From contig JAPOTY010000047.1 of NCBI GenBank assembly GCA_026708965.1, positions 55,021 to 119,020 of the forward strand: a stretch of DNA of 64,000 bases, in the 5' to 3' direction. This stretch comes from Gammaproteobacteria bacterium. GTDB taxonomy: Bacteria > Pseudomonadota > Gammaproteobacteria > Steroidobacterales > Foliamicaceae. Both the position numbers and the translations under genes were made by a program. This document shows positions 2,850 to 44,023 of the stretch, piece by piece. Below the pieces are notes generated by a model, which saw only the letters and a list, made by a program, of their open reading frames with translations, made no database searches and was not told where the DNA came from. The stretch's first letter is position 1. Every line of letters starts with the position of its first letter.

Positions 2850-2917
2850 GAGGCTCGACGCTCGTTTTCGGTAATAGTAGCGCGCAAGCCGCCCTGCCCG
2901 GAACCCGCCTGCGGATG

Positions 2918-3023
2918 CCTTTTGCGGATGCCCCGTCTCGCGGAGCGTCGGCGGCAGGACAGCCGCCGCCGAGCCCTAGGGATGGGTTTATGCGTCTCCG
3001 CGAGACGGGGCATCCGCAAAAGG
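2918..3023. repeat. Hairpin repeat element, copy 1: perfect 28-bp inverted repeat (2918-2945 / 2996-3023) around a 50-nt core
   Basis: Left ccttttgcggatgccccgtctcgcggag is the exact reverse complement of right ctccgcgagacggggcatccgcaaaagg; core cgtcggcggcaggacagccgccgccgagccctagggatgggtttatgcgt nearly matches the core at 36186-36233. Confidence 0.9.
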
Positions 3024-3118
3024 CGGACCTGCCGCAGGTGCAGCGCCAATGCCCGATGTTATAGAATTGCGCGCTCGCTTCGAGGAGCGTTGGCGGCTGG
3101 CATTCGGCCCCTGCGGCT

Positions 3119-19294: not shown

Positions 19295-19406
19295 GGCCTG
19301 GCCCGGATATTGCACCGATGGCGTGGAGGCCGCGCGGGGGAAAGGCTCCGTCTGCGGGCTTGAAGCATAGCCGTGCCTATGGCGCGGCGATCTGCATGAG
19401 GTTTTA

Positions 19407-36051: not shown

Positions 36052-36157
36052 AACACCAATATTGCCGTAGCGCGGCCCATAGCGTTGAATAGAGGAAGCC
36101 GCTTGCCCGGGAAAGGGCGCGGCCTGTACGCCCCTTGGCGCAATATCCGGGCTAAAG

Positions 36158-36333
36158 CCCTGCGCTTGCCCCCGCCTCGCGGGAGCGTCGGCGGCAGGAG
36201 CCGCCGCCGAGCCCCATGGATGGGTTCATGCGTCTCCCGCGAGGCGGGGGCAAGCGCAGGGCGAGGGCCGAGATGACGCCGGAGCAGATGGATAGGTTCA
36301 TGCGTCTCCCGCGAGGCGGGGGCAAGCGCAGGG
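36158..36333. repeat. Hairpin repeat element, copy 2, with one left arm (36158-36185) and two identical right arms (36234-36261 and 36306-36333)
   Basis: Left ccctgcgcttgcccccgcctcgcgggag; both right arms ctcccgcgaggcgggggcaagcgcaggg (exact reverse complement). Core 36186-36233 matches copy 1. Confidence 0.92.
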
Positions 36334-36367
36334 CGAGGGCAAGCGCGCTGGTGCAATATACGTGTTG

Positions 36368-43861: not shown

Positions 43862-44023
43862 GGGGCGGAGAATTCGCGCAGGATTTTGCTTGCCGCAGGC
43901 CATTCTCCGCCCCCCTCTTCCAGGAGACGCATGAACCCGTCCATGGGGCTTGCTTCGTTCGCGCCGGGACATCGGCGCTCACCCTGCCTCCGATACTCCC
44001 GGAAGAGGGGGGCGGAGAATGGC
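43862..44023. repeat. Hairpin repeat element, copy 3 (core on minus strand), with a third arm-like segment
   Basis: gccattctccgcccccctcttcc (43899-43921) pairs exactly with ggaagaggggggcggagaatggc (44001-44023); core ggagacgcatgaacccgtccatggggct is the reverse complement of the copy 2 core (one mismatch: gat>gac); extra ggggcggagaat at 43862-43873. Confidence 0.85.

Follow-up and report, generated by a model that had tools for sequence, protein, structure and literature searches.

Why does a hairpin whose arms differ in almost every copy remain almost perfectly paired within each copy, and what keeps the sequence between the arms constant? These questions are raised by three inverted repeats in the window, the stretch of 64,000 nucleotides analysed here, which comes from a sponge-symbiont-type gammaproteobacterial MAG of 47 contigs (G000).

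Three hairpins in one window

The initial annotation had claimed three intergenic copies of a hairpin with a constant core, and all three are present (three core matches versus 0.01 expected). Copy 1 (2917-3024, plus strand) lies between divergent map and rpsB, the gene names being read from sequence alone. Its arms (2917-2945 and 2996-3024) pair over 29 bp at 100% and enclose a core of 50 nt (2946-2995), in which covariation places the hairpins P2 (2946-2971, with the loop AGGACA at 2956-2961) and P3 (2975-2986, with the loop AGGGAT at 2978-2983). Copy 2 (36157-36262, plus strand) also has arms of 29 bp that are 100% complementary (36157-36185 and 36234-36262), around a core of 48 nt (36186-36233) with the loops AGGA (36196-36199) and ATGGAT (36216-36221); it is followed on the same strand, at 36288-36334, by an incomplete direct repeat of its right half, which consists of the core end and the right arm without the left arm. 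Copy 3 (43899-44023, minus strand) has arms of 28 bp (43899-43926 and 43996-44023) that are 96% complementary, with one G.T mismatch, and a variant core of 69 nt (43927-43995) that carries an insertion of about 20 nt in the P2 loop. The arm lengths given at the outset (28, 28 and 23 bp) were slightly short. The proposed minus-strand peptide reading of the core, ETH[EK]PI, looks incidental because the observed constraint falls on base pairing and loops.

A fourth position in the window, 19330-19360 (no strand), is a deletion scar. A full copy is present here in JAPYNE, a relative of about 93% identity (locus L144), and around 19,338 the window has lost the hairpin but kept its outer flanks and a portion of one arm; in the alignment with L144, C12:74358-74372 of G000 corresponds to window positions 19338-19352.

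A high-copy intergenic family

A search of the whole genome with the core, at up to three mismatches, returned 95 matches versus 0 for a reversed control pattern, and a total of three copies would be about 30-fold too low. As far as sequence comparison can tell, each genome carries about 100 members of this family of small mobile DNA hairpins, placed between genes. Full copies whose arms reach 23 bp or more number 78; 54 of these are perfectly complementary and 70 have distinct right arms, and 98.3% of their 2,261 arm pairs are Watson-Crick. Inverted repeats with exact arms of at least 20 bp numbered 117 in the 1.75 of 2.47 Mb that were scanned (contig C20 being excluded from this count) versus 0 in a Markov shuffle. 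Apart from one C-rich contig end, the long near-perfect inverted repeats in these 1.75 Mb almost all belong to the superfamily, some being variants whose core differs. Several copies are 5'-truncated. Contig ends fall within a hairpin copy in the first 50 or so bases of C6, C24, C27, C32, C33, C44 and C47 and in the last 50 or so of C20; the element thus breaks the assembly, and the true copy number therefore exceeds the count. At one contig end (C20:61-191) a long run of C interrupted by G is probably an assembly artefact.

The gene context was assessed with codon-based ORFs called in the present analysis. Convergent gaps are enriched for copies (32/89 vs 86/463, p=6e-4) and divergent gaps are avoided; in tandem contexts a copy lies about 57 bp past the upstream stop, and the strand bearing the GGA loops is co-directional with the genes in 22 cases and opposed in 22. 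The genes between neighbouring hairpins appear to be housekeeping genes, and no transposase was recognised among them by eye.

Two further arrangements were observed in this genome. In one composite, BIME-like in its layout and present four times (C6:9136-9392; C43:70330-70586; C43:141701-141957; C47:1-249), two hairpins from different subfamilies, inverted relative to each other, share a middle of about 40 bp. The motif TTGGCGCAATATGCGGGCTA is found at 25 intergenic places, for example near window position 36,134, and was considered as the outer end of the element; this was rejected, as the motif occurs both with and without a hairpin beside it.

A conserved three-way junction

Alignment and pair counts yield a fold in which P1, formed by the arms, meets the P2 and P3 hairpins in a three-way junction with a TTCAY bulge. 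In this genus P1 ends in GGAG/CTCC, and TTCATGCGT comes after P2 and P3. Across copies the loops are kept and the stems vary: 95.8% of cells are paired in the copies of this genome, versus 71.6% after shuffling, and in a wider set of 23 sequences, mostly from other genera and with largely unrelated arms, the values are 98.4% and 57.8%, with a two-sided change at 39 of 42 pairs. Information in the wider set amounts to 1.44 bits per column in the core versus 0.3 in the arms. The arms are the least conserved part of the element, and MITE-type conserved terminal inverted repeats are absent. The P2 loop reads A(N)GGA in 22/23 sequences of the wider set and the P3 loop ANGGA[TC] in 23/23, the second loop base being free, in a set found by a model made from the copies of this genome and hence partly biased to GGA loops; within the genome itself, where copies were gathered by their core, P3-loop conservation is partly built in. 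In 78 of 82 copies the two GGA motifs lie 16-20 nt apart.

Pairs other than Watson-Crick are unevenly distributed on the core strand, with 50 G.T versus 20 A.C (p=4e-4, for copies that are not fully independent), which suggests some additional selection or repair acting on the folded core strand. Selection for structure, as first proposed, is supported for the core by its class-wide pairing and is not needed as an explanation for the arms. The window holds 0 Rfam matches at the gathering threshold; permissive matches on the three loci were mostly chance hits to long-hairpin microRNA models and were discarded.

How the arms stay paired

Nine orthologous loci, restricted to pairs with arms at least 70% alike, contain 18 two-sided changes from one Watson-Crick pair to another versus 14 one-sided changes, although 7 of the 18 come from L172/C29, which could be a replaced arm. 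Divergence per site is about 9.9% in the arms and 8.3% in the intergenic flanks, and the arms are therefore not slowed by selection. The ratio of transitions to transversions is the same for two-sided changes (12:7) as for flanks (1265:713, p=1), and there is therefore no bias towards G-U intermediates. At L049/L172 adjacent double transversions are exactly mirrored in the partner arm, and L178, L189, L190 and L202 are orthologous pairs with only one or two paired changes. The core is moreover inverted between near-identical arms at L108 relative to L109, L146 and L180, and at L185 and L162 relative to G000; at L152 it is inverted relative to its own flanks. In these inversions the flanks, like the arms, are unchanged. 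Arm-to-arm copying, one of the mechanisms initially suggested, is strongly supported, as orthologous sites show both the paired changes and the inverted cores.

Homogenisation of arms and inversion of the spacer are the published signature of polymerase template switching (PMC8604942, PMC8794818), and multi-base paired changes extend the likeness to this quasipalindrome type of mutation. The published cases concern short scattered repeats and rRNA stems (PMC8604942, PMC8794818), whereas in the present genomes the signature is seen in a single family with about 100 dispersed members per genome. We infer that replication keeps the arms paired because the paired arm changes and core flips match the outcome of template switching. 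The hairpin is probably a non-autonomous mobile element of the YPAL/RU-2 superfamily whose arms are matched by template switching during replication and whose core is bound by a class-conserved factor. While the DNA is being replicated, the long arms would fold into a hairpin or cruciform and the polymerase would switch template between them, so that a new mutation is either removed or also written into the opposite arm; where the switch crosses the loop to the other strand, the core would be inverted. Such switching would let the arms drift freely while remaining perfectly paired. The core would be kept because both A(N)GGA(Y) loops, presented by a single folded strand, are recognised by a class-conserved factor, which may be a mobilising enzyme or, more speculatively, the RNA-binding CsrA/RsmA.

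It might be argued that both arms change at once because whole hairpins are overwritten by other copies. About 100 donor copies are available for such ectopic gene conversion, and the outer arms of L055/L172, which differ at many positions and still pair perfectly, are what it would produce. However, the 78 right arms include 70 different ones, one or two paired changes are all that separates many orthologous pairs, and in-place inversion of the core with unchanged arms is left unexplained, all of which make this route unlikely. Template switching has a consequence for how such families are read: strong covariation need not mean selection on RNA, because arm copying at the DNA level creates covariation. 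About 100 natural hairpins per genome also provide material with which arm copying and loop inversion by template switching can be measured.

The GGA loops and CsrA/RsmA

The two A(N)GGA(Y) loops resemble, by their sequence, the sites bound by CsrA/RsmE. This raises the possibility that each copy is transcribed and serves as a CsrA/RsmA decoy or an mRNA-stability hairpin, with compensatory arm changes being fixed by selection on the RNA. The P2 and P3 loops equal the ANGGAN hexaloop of RsmE sites, UACARGGAUGU matches the CsrA SELEX consensus RUACARGGAUGU, and the spacing of the GGA motifs lies within the CsrA dual-site range of 10-63 nt (PMC7652899). G.T is favoured over A.C on the core strand, and CsrA is encoded in 9/9 genomes of the genus. 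The family also shares multiple hairpins, A(N)GGA loops and a spacing of about 20 nt with the Csr/Rsm antagonist RNAs (CsrB/C, RsmX/Y/Z), but differs from them in being dispersed and mobile and in matching no Rfam family. ANGGAN apical loops are thus present, and a sense orientation to host transcripts is not seen: orientation to tandem genes is random (22:22) and cores flip. Furthermore, the arms change at a neutral rate and contain few wobble pairs, the searches themselves were partly biased to GGA loops, and one genome with 8 copies (G504, 98% complete) is without detectable CsrA. The presence of CsrA in 41/46 element-bearing versus 30/34 element-free genomes is uninformative. A functional RNA is a possible reading that we doubt.

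A bolder version, somewhat more doubtful still, would go further: the copies may be class-wide mobile and invertible RNA elements whose dual CsrA/RsmA module is the sole conserved business end. They would act as a decoy, selfish or domesticated, that retunes the Csr network as it spreads into intergenic regions, and template switching would let the arms drift without loss of the fold. Equally, a mobilising enzyme might use the A(N)GGA(Y) motif as its recognition loop. The shared loops make a connection to the regulator CsrA/RsmA that can be tested directly.

Mobility

Mobility, also suggested initially, is supported by filled and empty sites, and many such pairs are seen between G000 and JAPYNE (about 93% identical, compared over the 8-kb stretches of the latter) and in other congeners. 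The rpoB-rpoC spacer, for example, is empty and 28 bp long in G001, G003, G006 and G007, holds a sense copy in G000, JAPYNE and G004, and in G005 carries a copy from another subfamily that points the other way. Insertions extend 20-100 bp beyond the arms, and no clean target-site duplication or element ends could be established; a possible CTCATG duplication is seen at L139 only, intergenic flanks being too diverged elsewhere. An origin of the arms from target sequence was rejected, as empty sites contain no arm sequence. At L156 of JAPYNE, compared with C15:43,336 of G000, the adjacent 5' DNA consists of several tandem units of about 46 bp (CTTGATGCGCCCAGGACAGGCAAGCTTCCC...), which include part of the left flank and arm.

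High copy number, intergenic position, palindromic structure, the enrichment in convergent gaps and the BIME-like look of inverted pairs would all suit REP-like elements that depend on a Y1 tyrosine transposase (RAYT) for their movement. The suggested RAYT/TnpA-like enzyme is, however, not found: PF01797 is absent from all nine genomes of the genus, including G000, and from the three copy-bearing g18 genomes, which carry 3-33 copies. GTAG-REPs and BIMEs are likewise high-copy extragenic palindromes near 3' ends whose stems vary by complementary changes (PMC2817692), but here there is no GTAG or GTGG head, the conserved motif being GGAG/CTCC at the joint of arm and core, and the arms are several times longer than REP stems. 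Mobilisation by RAYT is thus already largely refuted and very unlikely. CGTC-REPs (PMC3733652) likewise have no dedicated transposase, and in the present family CGTC or TGTC stands directly before the P2 hairpin; they are, however, short solitary stem-loops, mostly alphaproteobacterial, with AT first pairs and a CCA tail, whereas the CGTC bases of the present family are paired as part of a larger three-way junction. The unpaired CGTC head, AT first pairs and CCA tail are accordingly not found: the first base of the motif is paired (U-A in 43, C-G in 19) and the first stem pairs are not AT.

Arms that flank a structured core, together with several 5'-truncated copies, could also recall a retro-element, a retron or an integron-cassette site. 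A reverse transcriptase had been proposed for inspection, and its presence does not track the element, RVT_1 being absent from G000 and from g18 and occurring within the genus in G001, G003, G005 and G007 only. No Rfam match reaches the gathering score, and it is the middle that is conserved here, unlike in attC sites, which conserve their ends; this origin is extremely improbable.

Relation to YPAL and RU-2

The non-autonomous mobile hairpin favoured here is spread widely. A covariance model made from the copies of G000 finds 26-65 copies in each of the other genomes of the genus. At E 1e-5 it matches 46/298 genomes of an order sample, nine of them from the genus itself, and 46/290 other genomes of a class sample, or 42/239 genera sampled, although some of the weakest class matches (E around 1e-6 to 1e-8) may be hairpins of another origin. 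The covariance search thus recovered relatives across the Gammaproteobacteria.

YPAL, the Yersinia palindromic sequence, was reportedly described by De Gregorio in 2006. The RU-2/YPAL sequence printed by Delihas in 2007 holds the same core, cgtccgcgccAAGGATggcgcggctcgagcctacATGGATgtatttacggcgt (PMC2759123), which also occurs on a Y. similis plasmid (L315), where the copy matches the model at E 3.7e-8. Published work describes YPAL as a miniature mobile element whose sites may be filled or empty and whose target duplications vary (review PMC2229807); these duplications measure 3-26 bp, and the element is reported as a conserved Yersinia/Erwinia family of about 168 bp. The two share a core that is homologous in sequence and structure, an intergenic position, filled and empty sites, and repeats that are internal rather than terminal. 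In contrast, the arms of the YPAL copy examined are imperfect, whereas here they measure 28-33 bp and pair nearly perfectly, almost every copy having arms of its own; the core flips as well, and members of the superfamily occur in 42 of the 239 genera sampled. The conserved full length of about 168 bp is not seen, the outer flanks being subfamily-specific or not conserved, and the family is therefore a relative of YPAL and not YPAL itself. By these comparisons it is a larger, new branch of the YPAL/RU-2 superfamily, and the proviso that it might match a described MITE family proved partly justified, as the core is homologous to the Yersinia element. The kind of element is already known; for its breadth, its three-way-junction core and the behaviour of its arms, no description was found in the literature searched, and searches for the core motif strings returned nothing relevant. 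An element described only for Yersinia/Erwinia is thereby joined to a superfamily present in about one in six sampled Gammaproteobacteria.

The core was found in 0 viral contigs and the class core in 0 phages. A YPAL-like core (84.7% over 72 bases; L316, H2-H6) is present in 5/5,426 complete E. coli genomes; all five carriers are wastewater isolates, four of them bear the core on plasmids, and a recent horizontal arrival is apparent.
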